Of a stretch of 64,000 bases of DNA, positions 36,290-44,319 are shown piece by piece; the first letter of the stretch is position 1, and every line of letters starts with the position of its first letter. The stretch covers positions 1 to 64,000 of the forward strand of contig JAHBSJ010000009.1 of NCBI GenBank assembly GCA_019639155.1, given 5' to 3'. The position numbers were made by a program, and so were the translations under genes. This stretch comes from Acidobacteriota bacterium (lineage in GTDB: Bacteria; Acidobacteriota; Blastocatellia; Pyrinomonadales; Pyrinomonadaceae). The notes under the pieces are model-generated. The model had not been told where the DNA came from and ran no database searches. It saw only the letters and a program-made list of their open reading frames with translations.

Positions 36290-37033
36290 TCAGAGCGTTA
36301 CCTTTTTCGCGCGTCCGATATCGACGCCGAAAGCCAAACGTGCCGAACGCCGCATTGCCGCCGCGTCGCCTGTCGTCAGAAAAACGTCGCTGCCGTCGCC
36401 TTTCAAATATTTTGCGGGTATTGCCCGTGCCAATGCCGCCGCCGGATCAATGAACTTCGTCGTGGGCGATACGAATTCCGCCAGCACGCTCTCAGCCGCA
36501 GGATAATGCGTGCAGGCGTGCAGAATGTGCGTGCAGTTTTTCAGCGGCCGCATGATGCGTGCGGCCTCGGCACGCAGTTCCGGCGAGTCTATTTTTCCCG
36601 CCTCGATCAACGCCGACAGCGGCTGTGCGACACGCTGTTTGACCGCAATTCCATTTTCCGCAAAACGCCGCGTGTGCACGCCCGACATCACGGTCCGTCG
36701 CCCGCCGATCATGCCGAGCTTTTCGGGACGCAGTTTCGACACCATCTCGACTGCGGGTTCGATGACGCCGAAAACGGGAACGTTCGTTCTCAGATCGCCG
36801 ATCGCCGTGCTCGCCGCATTGCAGCCGATCGCGACGGCACCGCAGCCGCTGTCGCGAAGATATCCGATGACCGTTTCGAGCCTCGCGGCAAGCTGTCGCC
36901 GCGACAAACGGCCGTAGGGCGTGACGCCCGTATCGGAAAAATACACGATCGAAGCCTGCGGTGAGCGTTTCTTTATTTCGCGGTAAACGCCCACGCCGCC
37001 AATGCCCCAATCAATGATGCCTAATTTGCTCAT
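36290..37033 (-). CDS. murI: Glutamate racemase
   Basis: A 247-residue cytosolic enzyme making D-glutamate for peptidoglycan. The family layout is visible: LGIIDWGIGGVGVYREI with the catalytic-site Asp (about residue 8), YFSDTGVTPYG, the first active-site Cys in AIGCNAAST (about 70) and the second in HACTHYPAAES (about 175). The start ATG at 37033 is preferred to the in-frame one seven codons upstream because the first strand follows directly. The usual FDSG is replaced by IDWG and LGCTHYP by HACTHYP, mild departures that leave an Asp/Glu racemase of another specificity possible. Confidence 0.85.
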   Translation of the reverse strand: MSKLGIIDWGIGGVGVYREIKKRSPQASIVYFSDTGVTPYGRLSRRQLAARLETVIGYLRDSGCGAVAIGCNAASTAIGDLRTNVPVFGVIEPAVEMVSKLRPEKLGMIGGRRTVMSGVHTRRFAENGIAVKQRVAQPLSALIEAGKIDSPELRAEAARIMRPLKNCTHILHACTHYPAAESVLAEFVSPTTKFIDPAAALARAIPAKYLKGDGSDVFLTTGDAAAMRRSARLAFGVDIGRAKKVTL

Positions 37034-37117: not shown

Positions 37118-38422
37118 CTACGGATACGTCAATTTCGCCTCGATGCCGCGTTCGACCGGGCCGCTGTCGAATGCCACGATCCGCGAATGCCACGCCATGT
37201 TGAGTATCTCCATTTTCTGCCCCGGAAATCGGCTTTCAAGATACCATTTCATCTCGTGTTCGGAGCGTATCGGATTGTATTCGAGCATCTTTTGCCAGTC
37301 GGGGTGCGCGACCAGCTCTTTCAAGGCAGCGTCGAAACGTGCGTTGGCTTTTTGATTGCGCATCGTGCGGAGCTTGTCGCCGATCAGCCGCGGATATTCG
37401 GCGGTCTTAACGGGAACCGTGACCATATCGACGATCAGCAGCTTGCCGCCGGGCCGCGTCACGCGTTTGATCTCAGCCAACAGCGGGTCCCAATCCAAAT
37501 AGCGGAACGACATCAGCGACGTAACGACGTCGAAAGAATTATCAGGGAACGGCAAGATCGGACCCGTTATAGTTTCGAATCTCAAATTCGAGACCTCGGC
37601 ATTTTTCTTCTTTGCACGCTCGACCATCGCTGCGGATTCATCAACGCCCGTTCCGGTCGCGATGCGTTCGCTCAGAGCGTTGAGCAAAGCGCCGTTTCCG
37701 CAGCCGATGTCCAGCAGGTCGATCTTGCCCGCGGGCAGGTGCTCATTCAGCCATTTCCATTCATCTTTTCTAACGCGAATGTCCTGAAACGCCGCGTCGT
37801 AAAGCTCCGCGACCCGATCATACGACGCCGCACCGTTTGCCGGCCGCGGCTCGAAACGTTTCATTTTCTCGGCCGGCATCATTCCCAGACGCTTTTGAAA
37901 TGTCGCCTTGATGCCGTGCGATTTTCGTCCCTTGCAGCCGATGGTGTAGAGCGGCGGCCGCGTGCTGTCGCCGGCGGCGGCGTAGCGTTCTCTGTCGCGG
38001 GAAAACGTCGTGTACCAGAAAAATCCGTACGCCGGCACGCCGAATGTGCGTGCAAAGAACGGCGCGAACCAGCGTGCCGAACGGCAGCAATAGAACGACG
38101 CCGACGCACCTTCAGCGAACGGTATCGACATCTGCTCCCATTCGTACGGCGAGAACTGCTCGGGAAAAGCTACCGTACCGAACATCGGCCCGTACATCCC
38201 CGAATGCCCGACAAAGATGAACTCTGCGATCTGCTTTCCGGCATCGGCAACCTCGGCGATCGCGGCGAGGACGTCGCGTTTGCTCTCGACCGCGCGGACA
38301 ACGGCCTCGCGGCCTGCTTCGCGTTTTTCGGCAGCCAAAGTTTCGGCGACCACCGGAAACTGATGGCCGCCGAGCCTGTATTTTGTTGTGTAGATGATCA
38401 GGACGACGCCGGTTTCGCTCAT
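37118..38422 (-). CDS. Two-domain protein: caspase-like N-terminal region fused to a SAM methyltransferase
   Basis: A 434-residue soluble protein. Residues about 225-345 are a class I SAM-dependent methyltransferase (motif I LLDIGCGNGALL, 236-247; motif near SFDVVTSLMSFRYLDWD; PGGKLLIVDMV). The first ~190 residues are not a known methyltransferase extension. They show a strand-His-Gly-like element (FIFVGHSGMYGPMFG, His73) then a strand ending in Cys (SASFYCCRSARWF, Cys112/113), in the order of a caspase-type His/Cys dyad. This is an inference from pattern; the region could be another alpha/beta hydrolase-like fold. The ATG at 38422 is used; an in-frame extension to 38695 runs antisense into addB. 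It is divergent from addB (120 bp apart). Confidence 0.65.
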   Translation of the reverse strand: MSETGVVLIIYTTKYRLGGHQFPVVAETLAAEKREAGREAVVRAVESKRDVLAAIAEVADAGKQIAEFIFVGHSGMYGPMFGTVAFPEQFSPYEWEQMSIPFAEGASASFYCCRSARWFAPFFARTFGVPAYGFFWYTTFSRDRERYAAAGDSTRPPLYTIGCKGRKSHGIKATFQKRLGMMPAEKMKRFEPRPANGAASYDRVAELYDAAFQDIRVRKDEWKWLNEHLPAGKIDLLDIGCGNGALLNALSERIATGTGVDESAAMVERAKKKNAEVSNLRFETITGPILPFPDNSFDVVTSLMSFRYLDWDPLLAEIKRVTRPGGKLLIVDMVTVPVKTAEYPRLIGDKLRTMRNQKANARFDAALKELVAHPDWQKMLEYNPIRSEHEMKWYLESRFPGQKMEILNMAWHSRIVAFDSGPVERGIEAKLTYP

Positions 38423-38542
38423 CGTTGTATCAGAAAAATGCCCGGCGCCGCAGGGCCTGAGATCTCGGGAAATGTGACGGGAAAGACCCGCCTTTCTTGC
38501 GAAAAATCTTACTTGAACCGATACTCTATTGACAACCATCTG

Positions 38543-41179
38543 ATGCGAATCGTCATTACAGATCCTTTCCCAAAGGCTCCCGCCGAAATTCCCGCGGGGC
38601 TGACGGTCATCACGCCAAATCGCAACGCCGCGAGTGAATTGAATGTCGCCTGCGAAACGCTGGAAAAGCTGGCCCGCGAAACTCTCCATCGTCACGAGCT
38701 GAATGTGCTGCCAAAACTGCGGTCACGCTATTTTCTCAAACAAGTAATAAATAGAACGATTTCGAACACTGATCCGGCTCCCTATGCCGCGCGCATCAAT
38801 GAGACGCTGACGACCATCTTGCGTACCGGCATTGATACCGATGACCTGATGCGGTTCGGTTCGCCGCGTGTGGCGGACCTGGCAAGCATTGTCGTCGGCT
38901 ATCGTGCCGAGCTTGCGAACATCTCCGCAGTGGACGATGAAGAGATATTGATCCGTGCGGCTCGGCTCGGCCCCGACCGACGGCCGCTGCTCATTTGGGG
39001 GCATTTCAGGGCGCGTCATGAAGAGATCGAGTTCATCGACGCAGCGGCCGGCGACGGCAGCATCTTGTATTTGCCCTGCGGCGACGATGCCGTCTTTCAG
39101 ACGAACCGCCGTTGGGCCGATTGGCTGGAAATTCGCGGCTGGACCACGCAGAACTCCGGACAAAGCGAAGATGACCGTTCAGGTGCTGCTTTGGCAAGGA
39201 AATTTTTTGGGATCCCGGAAATAGTTTCCGCTCCGGCGCTGAAATTCGAGAACATCGACGCCGAGGTCCGCGGGGTTTTGTCACGCTGCAAGCGTCTTAT
39301 AGCCGCAGGCACGCCCGCTCACCGCATCGCGATAGTCAGCCGTAAACCTGAAAACTTTGCTCCCGCGTTCGCCTCAGTAGCGGCTGAATACGGCATGCCT
39401 ATCCAGATCCATAGCCGCGTTCCGGCGCTTCATACGTCATTCGGCGAATTCGTGCGGCTGCTCCTCGAGACCATCGAGAACAGCATGCCGTTCGAAGAGA
39501 CCGTACGGCTGCTGAAGCATCGTTTCGGGCCGGGCATCAGCAGCGAAACGCTCGAAAAAGCGAGGCAGGAGCATTTTTCGGGCCTGGAAAAATGGGCAGA
39601 AGCGGGCATCGACACCACGCTTTTCACTCCGCCCGAACAGCAGAACCTGAAAGGCTGGCTCGGCTACGTCGACCGCGTTTTTGAGAGTTTTCAAGTCGAA
39701 GCACGCACCGCCGCCGACAGCGCCGAAATGAACGCCCGTGAGGCGTTTTTCAGCGAGATGCGGACGCTTTCGCAGCTCGAGGCGGAACGGCGTTTCAGTT
39801 TTTCGCAGTTTCGTGCGATCTGTCTTGAAGCGTTGTGGGAAACGGCCGTTCCTTTTTCGACATCGCGTGCCGGTGTCGAACTGCTCGGGCCGGAATCGAT
39901 ATTCGGTTCGTCATTCGACCATCTTTTCGTGATCGGGCTTGCGGAAGGGCGTTTCCCCGCACACGCGGTCGATAATCCGGCGGTCGATTTTTACGAACGG
40001 AAACAGCTCGCTCAACACGGCATCGAATTCGAAGAGGCGGCTGAGGTCGGGCGTTGGGAATCGCTCGCATTTTGCCTGTCGCTGCTTGCGGCAAAGCGGG
40101 GCGTGACGCTCTCATTCGCGGAAATGGGCACCGGCGGCGAACTGCTCAAAAGCCCTTTCTTTGACCGGCTGGGACTTGAGCCGCAGTTCAAATATGAAAG
40201 GCCGTCGGCGGCAAGCATCGAGGAACGCCGGGCGTTGCTGGTGACAGCCGGCGGCGACGCAGACAGCGTGCTGGAAGACGCCTGCCGCAAATTCGCCATC
40301 GAAAAGAACCGCGAGGTCGGCATCGATTACGACGAATATGACGGCATTGCGGGCATCGCTATCGACGCGGCGAAACGCAATTGGAGCGTGTCGCAATTTA
40401 CGCAGTTCGGGCAATGCAGTTTTCGGTGGTTCGCACAGCGGCTGCTGAATCTGGCCGAACCCGACGAACTGGAACCCGCACTTGATTTCGCACACCGCGG
40501 CTCTTTCTATCACAAAGTGATCGAATTGGCGACGCTGAACGCACTTGACGCGGCCGATCAGAGAGCCGCGATACTCGACGCTCTGGAGGCCGCTTTTCGC
40601 GCCGCGGAGGAAGACCCCGAGGTCGAGCTCCCGGCATATACGAACTGGGAACTGCAGGCGGACGAGCACCTGAGAACGCTGGAAAGGGCGGTCAAGGCCG
40701 TCGATTTTCTCCCGAATGGCAGCAAGATCGAGGCTGCTGAACAGGAATTTAAGGCCGAATGGCTCGGGCTCCGACTGACCGGCTGGATCGACCGCATTGA
40801 CACGCTTGACGGCAAACTGATCGCCATCGATTACAAGACAAGCTCCGTAAAACCGAACGGAGCAAAGGACGAAACAGGAAAACTGAAGCTGGACGTACAA
40901 ATTCCCGTCTATGCGGAGGTCGCCCTCAAAGCTCTTTTCCCCAAGGGAAACGTCGGCGACAGTAACTACTATTCGCTGACCAAAGCAAAGAAATTATCTG
41001 CCGGACGCGACAACAGCATAGAACGCGTTGCTGAGTTGGTCGAAAAAATAAAAGGACGCCTTGCGGCGGGTGCTTTCCCGGTAGATCCCGACAGCAGGAA
41101 CGAGGCCTGCAAATATTGCGATCTTGCGTCTGTCTGCAGAAAAGGCCATAGGCTGGAGAGAAAAACGTGGAACGGGTAA
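38543..41179 (+). CDS. addB: AddB-like helicase-nuclease subunit
   Basis: An 878-residue protein matching AddB/RexB: an N-terminal degenerate UvrD-like region, and a C-terminal RecB-type PD-(D/E)XK nuclease (LTGWIDRIDTLDGKLIAIDYKTSS, quoted in parts; about residues 745-775). Cys residues at FGQCSFRW (about 640) and CKYCDLASVC (about 855-865) form the [4Fe-4S] ligands of the AddB nuclease. It resects double-strand breaks together with AddA. The ATG at 38543 is chosen since the preceding part of the open frame is antisense to the methyltransferase. It overlaps addA by 13 nt. Confidence 0.88.
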   Translation: MRIVITDPFPKAPAEIPAGLTVITPNRNAASELNVACETLEKLARETLHRHELNVLPKLRSRYFLKQVINRTISNTDPAPYAARINETLTTILRTGIDTDDLMRFGSPRVADLASIVVGYRAELANISAVDDEEILIRAARLGPDRRPLLIWGHFRARHEEIEFIDAAAGDGSILYLPCGDDAVFQTNRRWADWLEIRGWTTQNSGQSEDDRSGAALARKFFGIPEIVSAPALKFENIDAEVRGVLSRCKRLIAAGTPAHRIAIVSRKPENFAPAFASVAAEYGMPIQIHSRVPALHTSFGEFVRLLLETIENSMPFEETVRLLKHRFGPGISSETLEKARQEHFSGLEKWAEAGIDTTLFTPPEQQNLKGWLGYVDRVFESFQVEARTAADSAEMNAREAFFSEMRTLSQLEAERRFSFSQFRAICLEALWETAVPFSTSRAGVELLGPESIFGSSFDHLFVIGLAEGRFPAHAVDNPAVDFYERKQLAQHGIEFEEAAEVGRWESLAFCLSLLAAKRGVTLSFAEMGTGGELLKSPFFDRLGLEPQFKYERPSAASIEERRALLVTAGGDADSVLEDACRKFAIEKNREVGIDYDEYDGIAGIAIDAAKRNWSVSQFTQFGQCSFRWFAQRLLNLAEPDELEPALDFAHRGSFYHKVIELATLNALDAADQRAAILDALEAAFRAAEEDPEVELPAYTNWELQADEHLRTLERAVKAVDFLPNGSKIEAAEQEFKAEWLGLRLTGWIDRIDTLDGKLIAIDYKTSSVKPNGAKDETGKLKLDVQIPVYAEVALKALFPKGNVGDSNYYSLTKAKKLSAGRDNSIERVAELVEKIKGRLAAGAFPVDPDSRNEACKYCDLASVCRKGHRLERKTWNG

Positions 41180-44100
41180 ACCTAAATCCGGATCAGCAGC
41201 GGGCGGCGACGGCGAAAACGAGCGTAGCCGTGACCGCCGGCGCCGGAACGGGCAAAACGGCCATGCTCTCGCACCGATATCTGCACCACGTCAGCGTGGA
41301 CGGCCTCTCGCCGCTAGCGATAGTTGCTGTTACCTTTACCGACAAGGCGGCAGCCGAGCTTCGCTCCCGTATCCGCAGGGTTTTGATCGAGGAAGGCGCG
41401 AACGAAGAGACCATCTCGGAACTCGAGGCAGCACAGATCAGCACTATCCACTCGCTGTCGGCTCGCATATGCCGCGACCATTACGACATCGTCGGCCTGC
41501 CTCCGGATTTCGAGATAATGGACGACGTCACGTCAATACTTTGGGAGCAGGAAAAATTTGACGAGGCTATCGCGCTCATTCCGCCGGAAACGGTCAGGCT
41601 GCTGGGCTTTTCGTTCATCAACGAGGCCGTTGCCGAGCTGCTGAAGGATCCTTTCCGGTCGGATGCCGCTCTTGGACAAGGCACGGATCACTGGGCCGCC
41701 AAGTTCGACGAACTGCGGCGGAAAGAGGCTCTGGAGCTGATGGCGTCGGACTTTTGGCGGCTGACGGAAGAGAATTTGAAACGCATCCAGGGCCCCGAAG
41801 GCGACAAGCTGGAAACCGCCCGCGCCGACGCTGTCAATGCGATGAGCGAAGCCCGCCGTACTGTTTCGCTCAAGCCAATACTCGATGTTTTCAATGTCCA
41901 TAAGCCCGGTACGGTCGGGTCGAAAGCGAACTGGGGCGAGGAACCTCTCGCAGAGGCCAGAGGGCTCCTCGTAACCCTGCGTGATCATACGCGCTCTCAT
42001 GCCGAGCTTGCCGTTGTCGATTTCGGTCCGGCGGACGAAGCTGTCGCAAAAATGATCGACGCTCTGGCCGACGCATATCGGCTGGTACGACAATTCTTGC
42101 GTAAAGAAAAGCTCAGGAACAAGCTGGTCGATTTCAATGACCTCGAACTCAACGCCTACGAGATACTCAAGAACAAAGCCGCTGTCAGACATTACGCTGA
42201 GCGTTGGAAGGCCATTTTGGTTGACGAATTTCAGGACACGAATCCGATACAAGCGGCTATCATCGAGAGCCTGGCCGAAGGCACGCGGCTGACCATCGTC
42301 GGCGATGAAAAGCAGTCGATCTACGGTTTTCGCGGTGCGGATGTTGACGTTTTCGCAAGGTTTCGCGGGCGCATCGTCAGTGAGCTTGGCGGCGAACAGG
42401 TCGAGCTCGGCCTTTCATATCGTTCGCACTCGGCACTTGTCGAAAGCACAAATTCCGTATTCCGTACGGTGCTCGGTACCATTCATCAGGATCTGACGGC
42501 GTTCAACGGGGAAACCGCCCATAGGCCGCCTTTCGTCTCGCTTCACGTGACCGAGGGCGAAGGCATCGGCAAGCATCTGCTGCAGCGGATCGAGGCTGAT
42601 TTTATCGCGGAAAAGATCGCCTGGCTGCACGCTGAAAACAACGTCGCATACAAGGACATCGCTATACTCGCACGCGTATGGCAGCCGCTCGATATCTATT
42701 TGGACGCACTGCTGGCACGCGGAATCCCGGCGGTGCATTTCGGCGGCGGAAGCCTCTTGGAAACGCGCGAGGCGACAGATATTTATTCGCTGCTGCAGTT
42801 TCTCGCACGGCCTGAAGACAACCTGCCGCTCGTCGCGCTGCTGCGTAGTCCTTTCTTTGCCGTCAGCGACACGAAATTGCTCGCCGCCGCACTGGCCGAG
42901 GGCCGCAAGATCGTCTGGTGGGACGCGGTCCGCCGACGGCCCGAGTTTGAAAAAGAGGCGGCGATATTGACGGAGCTTTTGGACCAGAGCCGCAGGCTGA
43001 CCGCCGATGCGGTCATTGCTCTCGCGGACCGTATGACCGGATATTCGGCGATCATAGCAAATCTTCCGCAGTCGAACCGCCGCTCCGCGGACCTTCGCGG
43101 GATGCGTGAATTCATACGCGGTCTCGGCTCCGAAGGCCGCTCGGACGTCTTCGGTGTGGTGCGGTCGATACGCGAATTGCTGCGTGCCGAGGCCGAGGTG
43201 CCGCGGCCGCAGATACAGGCCGGCGACGCGGTGTCGCTGATGACAATTCACAAGGCAAAAGGCCTGGAATGGGACGTCGTTTTCGTGCCGGATCTGGCAC
43301 GAATGCCAAAATCGGACAGCTCTAAACTATTGATAGACACAGAGATAGGCGTTACTTTCTCTGTCGATGGCGAGGAGGCCGAACGCGAAAAAGGAGCGAT
43401 ATTCAAGCTGATCAGTGCCCGCAAAAAACGCCGCGAAGAGGCGGAGCTGCGTCGTCTGCTTTATGTCGCGATCACGCGTGCCAAGCAGCAGGTGTTACTG
43501 TCGGCGACGGAGCACGACAAACATGCTCTGAAAATATTGAACGAAGGGTTGGCAAACGCCGGCATCGAACCGCAGTTCATACCTTTTGATGAGCAGAAGG
43601 CAAAGCCGCCGACGCCGCTTGATATCCACGCGCCGGTCATTCAGATCGACGAACTGCTCGAGACGATACCCGCCGTTCCCGCGTCGGTCACGGCGACGGG
43701 GCTTTCGATGTTCGCAAAATGCCCGAAGCGTTTCCGCTACGAGTTCATCGACGGCCATCCCGGCATCGCGGGCGAAACCGGATCGAACGCCGCAAAGATC
43801 GGATCGCTGACGCATCAGGCTCTGGAGATGGAATTCTATTCGGTCGATGAGCTGCGTGATTTTACCGTTGATGCGACAGATGAGGAACTGTTAGAGGCAT
43901 TGCGGCTGGCAAACGTATTCCGCGAGTCGCCGCAATTTGACGCTGTGCGGTCGGGCCTCGCTCGTTACGAAGTGCCTTTCAAAACCGCGGCCGGCGGGCT
44001 GAATATCCACGGCAACGCAGATTATGTGACCGATGACGTTGTGCTCGATTTTAAGACCGACGCCGAAATGCACCCCGACGAACATCAGTTCCAGCTATGG

Positions 44101-44319
44101 GCATACGCGAAGGCATTCGACAGACAGCGCGCCGTGATCGCTTATCTCCGCCACGACAAGCTGCACGAATGGAGCGGCGAATCATTCGCAGCTCTCGACG
44201 CCGCCGCTCAAGCACTCGCCGCACGCATCCTCGCGGGCGACCACACCGCAAACCCTTCCGAAACCAACTGCACCTACTGCCCGTTCAAGACCATCTGCCC
44301 TGAAAGTTTGGTCAGATAG
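41167..44319 (+). CDS. addA: AddA-like UvrD/RecB helicase-nuclease
   Basis: A 1050-residue superfamily 1A helicase with C-terminal RecB nuclease. Motif I (Walker A) is GAGTGKT (residues 25-31), followed by VTFTDKAAAELRSRI; motif II is ILVDEFQDTN (about 355), motif III GDEKQSIYGFRG, motif V/VI include LMTIHKAKGLEW and LLYVAITRAK. The nuclease block is VVLDFKTDAEMHPDEHQFQLW near residue 960 (quoted in full), with a C-terminal CTYCPFKTICP cluster. The GTG at 41167 overlaps addB, so they are translationally coupled. Confidence 0.92.
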   Translation: MERVNLNPDQQRAATAKTSVAVTAGAGTGKTAMLSHRYLHHVSVDGLSPLAIVAVTFTDKAAAELRSRIRRVLIEEGANEETISELEAAQISTIHSLSARICRDHYDIVGLPPDFEIMDDVTSILWEQEKFDEAIALIPPETVRLLGFSFINEAVAELLKDPFRSDAALGQGTDHWAAKFDELRRKEALELMASDFWRLTEENLKRIQGPEGDKLETARADAVNAMSEARRTVSLKPILDVFNVHKPGTVGSKANWGEEPLAEARGLLVTLRDHTRSHAELAVVDFGPADEAVAKMIDALADAYRLVRQFLRKEKLRNKLVDFNDLELNAYEILKNKAAVRHYAERWKAILVDEFQDTNPIQAAIIESLAEGTRLTIVGDEKQSIYGFRGADVDVFARFRGRIVSELGGEQVELGLSYRSHSALVESTNSVFRTVLGTIHQDLTAFNGETAHRPPFVSLHVTEGEGIGKHLLQRIEADFIAEKIAWLHAENNVAYKDIAILARVWQPLDIYLDALLARGIPAVHFGGGSLLETREATDIYSLLQFLARPEDNLPLVALLRSPFFAVSDTKLLAAALAEGRKIVWWDAVRRRPEFEKEAAILTELLDQSRRLTADAVIALADRMTGYSAIIANLPQSNRRSADLRGMREFIRGLGSEGRSDVFGVVRSIRELLRAEAEVPRPQIQAGDAVSLMTIHKAKGLEWDVVFVPDLARMPKSDSSKLLIDTEIGVTFSVDGEEAEREKGAIFKLISARKKRREEAELRRLLYVAITRAKQQVLLSATEHDKHALKILNEGLANAGIEPQFIPFDEQKAKPPTPLDIHAPVIQIDELLETIPAVPASVTATGLSMFAKCPKRFRYEFIDGHPGIAGETGSNAAKIGSLTHQALEMEFYSVDELRDFTVDATDEELLEALRLANVFRESPQFDAVRSGLARYEVPFKTAAGGLNIHGNADYVTDDVVLDFKTDAEMHPDEHQFQLWAYAKAFDRQRAVIAYLRHDKLHEWSGESFAALDAAAQALAARILAGDHTANPSETNCTYCPFKTICPESLVR

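Follow-up and report, generated by a model that had tools for sequence, protein, structure and literature searches.

We identified a two-gene unit in which a fusion protein, joining a probably caspase-like N-terminal domain to a class I SAM methyltransferase, is accompanied by a MurI-like Asp/Glu racemase paralogue. The unit was found in an Acidobacteriota genome (family Pyrinomonadaceae), in a stretch of 64,000 nucleotides that is referred to as the window. The reading that we favor, to which we give a probability of roughly 0.5, is that the two genes specify an enzyme module for a peptide or amino-acid substrate, built from a fusion with a diverged clan CD p20-like domain and from the racemase paralogue.

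Results

The fusion gene (37118-38422, minus strand) consists of 434 codons, from an ATG at 38422 to a stop at 37118, and encodes a 434-residue protein whose relatives are 68-82% identical to it. A first-pass annotation of the same DNA had placed it at 37118-38542, of which the gene accounts for all but 38423-38542; the remainder is the unstranded 120-bp gap to the divergent addB, an adjacency seen in the window's genome only, and 38542 is the last base ahead of the addB ATG (38543). The 120 bp given there agree with the start positions, and the motifs it named, H73 in VGHSG, C112/C113 in SFYCCRSA, and DIGCGNG, are all present in the translation. It had also held that the N-terminal ~190 residues lie outside the methyltransferase, and indeed Pfam methyltransferase models match the C-terminal half only. 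This half (residues 190-434; 37121-37855, minus strand) contains a SAM-binding domain above the curated threshold (PF08241, 80 bits versus a cut-off of 21.2), sharing with class I SAM methyltransferases (Methyltransf_11/25) the full domain and an invariant DIGCGNG, while differing from them in a conserved C-terminal extension and in reaching no equivalog cut-off in NCBIfam. Its solved structural relatives are generic and point to no substrate. For residues 1-192, no match above noise was obtained in Pfam, NCBIfam, PHROGs or PDB sequences, and none of 25 fusion proteins was recognized by PF00656 (Peptidase_C14) at E<=10.

Relatives of the fusion with 68-82% identity occur in 31 of the 119 genomes of the window's family, the Pyrinomonadaceae, and outside it in G049 and G505, which belong to a second family of the same class. 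Fourteen of 396 sampled Acidobacteriota genomes carry the fusion; no distant relatives were detected in the remaining genomes of this sample or in viral contigs, plasmids or phages, and the weak matches within the class, up to E 10, look like noise, bar one on a C14 domain. Beyond this phylum, the search consisted of a single peptide-pattern scan of genome contigs, which detects close relatives only; of the two close relatives that are named, one is a Pyrinomonadaceae bacterium (Acidobacteriota). In the genomes so searched, the N-terminal domain was never seen without the methyltransferase. Eight residues of the domain are invariant in 25 aligned fusion sequences (H73, C112, C113, R114, S115, A116, C163 and H169), so the check proposed in the first-pass annotation, whether His73 and Cys112 are constant among homologues, comes out positive for H73, C112 and C113. 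In residues 1-180, as in the methyltransferase, the dN/dS ratio is ~0.1, an approximate value from simple pairwise counting with synonymous sites near saturation; selection acts on the N-terminal domain no less strongly than on the methyltransferase. The spread over 31 of 119 family genomes, the invariance of H73, C112 and C113 and this low ratio together indicate that the gene is real and its features are beyond chance. Our literature search found no paper on a caspase-like/methyltransferase fusion, and the word 'methyltransferase' is absent from the main text of a survey of prokaryotic caspase homologues (PMC3501461).

The predicted fold of residues 1-180 (37883-38422, minus strand) is of the caspase type in its order of elements. 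An AF2 model from a three-sequence alignment (mean pLDDT 67.6, pTM 0.73) runs b1-a-b2-a-b3-His73...b4-Cys112/Cys113-a-b5, with block pLDDT of 74-91 in most core strands, and thus shows the alternating strands and helices of a caspase-like p20 unit, in which strand 3 leads to the His and strand 4 to the Cys; a full-length model from three sequences had a mean pLDDT of 43 and served for strand order only. The comparison with caspase-like folds that the first-pass annotation had proposed is therefore favorable as to strand and helix order, but it does not separate caspases from flavodoxin-like folds: the top Foldseek matches are dehydroquinase II/flavodoxin-like chains (E about 5e-4, TM 0.35-0.43), caspase-11, caspase-4, CED-3, caspase-1 and MALT1 follow at ranks 29-48 in the PDB (TM about 0.4), and viral caspases or metacaspases make up about 8 of the top 50 in BFVD.

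Profile comparison did separate the two, with a signal for Peptidase_C14. Aligned by hhalign with 27 C14 regions of the same class, the domain profile scored 34.3 over 114 columns (2-117; P 1.2e-4, probability 55%), against 20.7 for the best of 20 unrelated families and 11-12 for reversed alignments. VGHSG falls on AGHG and FYCCRSA on LDACRDN, which puts His73 on the catalytic His and Cys113, rather than C112, on the catalytic Cys. The score remained at 31.3 when the two nearest C14 members were left out. The probability of 55% is low, however, as is the diversity of the query profile (Neff 1.7). Twelve random halves of the C14 set scored 23.8-34.4; because all of them exceeded the null, nine alignments ending after the His and three reaching the Cys, we regard the His register as solid and the Cys113 register as probable. 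When the domain profile was compared with 2,402 open frames, Peptidase_C14 domains took the first two places, each in an alignment that starts at strand 1 and ends at the catalytic GHG; of the two, the second alone is independent, L224 having already been noticed in a prior weak-match search. L224 (652-1653, minus strand) is the caspase homologue that scores best against the N-terminal domain; this Peptidase_C14 gene of G493 was matched in two frames and is possibly frameshifted.

The domain thus has in common with Peptidase_C14, orthocaspases and metacaspases (PF00656) the strand order up to the catalytic His and the register of the His-Cys dyad, and its Cys-Cys-x-Ser resembles the metacaspase motif DCCHSG. 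It differs from them in lying below Pfam detection, in having GHSG where C14 usually has GHG, and in its fusion to a methyltransferase. The predicted dyad would be His73-Cys113, with Cys112 not the partner. The caspase-like reading is supported, not proven, and we consider it probable that residues 1-180 form a strongly diverged caspase fold with such a dyad. Of the caspase/CHAT-type dyad originally suggested, the caspase part has gained from the invariance, the order of elements and the C14 match on His73/Cys113, whereas CHAT (PF12770) shares with the domain only the general clan and His-Cys logic: there is neither profile similarity (score 17.7, probability 0.6%, 5 columns) nor a SACxT motif, and membership was rejected. 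As a separate observation on CHAT proteins, two class relatives (G038 and G042) encode at least 55 of them per genome, which amounts to a very large expansion within a single family of this class.

It could be argued that the domain has a different three-layer alpha/beta fold, flavodoxin-like or hydrolase, in which the His/Cys cluster (H73, C112, C113, C163 and H169) serves the methyltransferase by binding a cofactor, metal or substrate, and the caspase likeness is convergent. In flavodoxin-like proteins, too, it is strands 1, 3 and 4 whose ends carry the site, and this explanation would fit the top Foldseek matches, a weak Pfam match to Abhydrolase_6 (E 0.06) and the fact that C163 and H169 are invariant as well. 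However, the FMN_red profile is silent on the domain (hhalign score 13.6), which led us to reject an FMN reductase/flavodoxin identity, whereas C14 reaches 34.3 in the expected register, and C14 is also the better fit for the CCRSA motif and for the long helix that joins strands 2 and 3. We therefore think a non-caspase fold unlikely.

Cleavage by metacaspases and orthocaspases follows Arg/Lys, and these enzymes retain two aspartates in the pocket (Asp95 and Asp211 in TbMC2; PMC6426788), the second of which sits within DxC (PMC5756287). In the 25 aligned fusion sequences, position -2 of Cys113 is Tyr, Phe or His in place of Asp, and the first pocket Asp, after strand 1, falls in an insertion relative to the fusion family, so that the two S1-pocket aspartates that mark metacaspases and orthocaspases (C14B) and serve a basic P1 are both missing; on these residues, basic P1 (Arg/Lys) specificity appears unlikely. 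After strand 1, Arg16 is invariant, at the position where caspases keep their S1 arginine; an acidic preference of the caspase-like site would be a guess.

The missing S1 aspartates are also what one might expect if the caspase fold were retained without proteolysis, to regulate the methyltransferase or to bind its substrate, for which the existence of pseudo-orthocaspases offers a precedent (PMC6426788). This seems quite improbable given that all 25 sequences retain the His and the Cys, and that the known pseudo-enzymes lost the dyad and kept the pocket aspartates, the opposite of what is found in the fusion domain.

The sole constant neighbor of the fusion, absent from the first-pass annotation, is the racemase paralogue (36290-37033, minus strand; 247 aa from an ATG at 37033), which lies directly downstream on the same strand, mostly with a gap of 0-25 bp (84 bp in the window). 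It shares with the glutamate racemase MurI the PF01177 domain and the catalytic residues, namely both Cys (in GCNAAST and ACTHYP), the Asp and the Glu, but has throughout an invariant DWG and NAA where MurI has DSG and NTA, and stays below the cut-off of the MurI equivalog TIGR00067 (105 bits versus 146.65); the substrate pocket has probably changed, judging from these motifs. A canonical MurI is additionally present in nearly all genomes with the paralogue, in the window's genome at G000:C1:192971-193609.

Fusion and racemase paralogue occupy identical sets of 14 genomes among the 396 Acidobacteriota. Within the family, 30 of 119 genomes have both, one the fusion only, one the racemase only and 87 neither (Fisher p 7e-26, uncorrected for kinship). 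Both exceptions are drafts: in G023 (L081 4635-4973) the fusion is broken after about residue 113 and has no racemase, and in G460 (L080 4273-5094) the racemase stands alone, at a site from which the fusion gene is absent. Distances between fusions correlate with those between racemases of the same loci (r 0.54, 0 of 2000 permutations), and six genomes without the pair (G009, G011, G012, G014, G020 and G031) share an empty site, at which DUF58 and SpoIIM are present without it. The racemase paralogue is a near-obligate partner of the fusion, and the two form a co-inherited two-gene unit.

In most relatives within the genus the fusion is flanked on one side by DUF58, in some cases accompanied by radical SAM and OMP genes, and on the other by META/SpoIIM; in other genera its surroundings are entirely different. 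Searches of the window's genome detected neither DUF58 nor SpoIIM (7 of 8 relatives were recovered with the SpoIIM query), and there the pair adjoins addB. The first-pass annotation had linked the fusion to addBA as a possible stress or defense module, an idea to which the 120-bp divergent spacing and the frequent action of bacterial caspase homologues in cell death or defense lend some appeal. We consider it very improbable and rejected it, since among the loci compared addBA adjoins the fusion in the window only, the usual flanks DUF58 and SpoIIM are not found in this genome, the locus lies among ordinary genes, and PADLOC returned a generic methyltransferase match only, with no defense context.

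The addBA-like pair itself (38543-44319, plus strand) carries PDDEXK_1 in both subunits; AddB falls closest to TIGR03623, a subfamily named 'probable DNA repair protein', and its matches to the AddB equivalogs are weak. Upstream of its ATG, addB (frame 37187-41179, plus strand) has ~450 further open codons, which run antisense to the fusion gene; automatic gene calling could include them and report a spurious AddB of 1330 aa.

Discussion

The fused arrangement and the strict pairing hint that three chemistries, namely Cys/His amide chemistry, SAM-dependent methylation and inversion of an amino-acid carbon, might serve one pathway, for which a peptide or amino-acid derivative would be the natural common substrate. 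The caspase-like site would cleave an amide, or transfer it, via a thioester on Cys113, the methyltransferase would methylate the substrate or product, and the racemase would invert an amino-acid center. The amide chemistry, the order of steps and the substrate are speculative, and we would give this scheme somewhat less than an even chance. That fusion and racemase co-occur is no proof that they share a pathway, and in G460 the racemase is retained by itself.

Bacterial caspase homologues have been studied mostly for their part in cell death and defense. Our results suggest that here a caspase-type active site works in a pathway of peptides or amino acids, and not in DNA repair or defense. 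It is tempting to go further and propose that a Cys/His enzyme of caspase fold and non-basic specificity was recruited, with its fused methyltransferase and the racemase, into a new metabolic pathway for the biosynthesis or catabolism of a peptide or acidic amino-acid derivative; we hold this to be a tentative idea, and one that is less likely than not.

The N-terminal domain may represent a caspase-like family that lies under the detection limit of current libraries. The clean presence or absence of the two-gene unit between close relatives makes a metabolic role directly testable and, if the reading is true, so highly conserved a caspase-like domain, tied to a methyltransferase and a racemase, would indicate that the caspase active site has been put to metabolic use.
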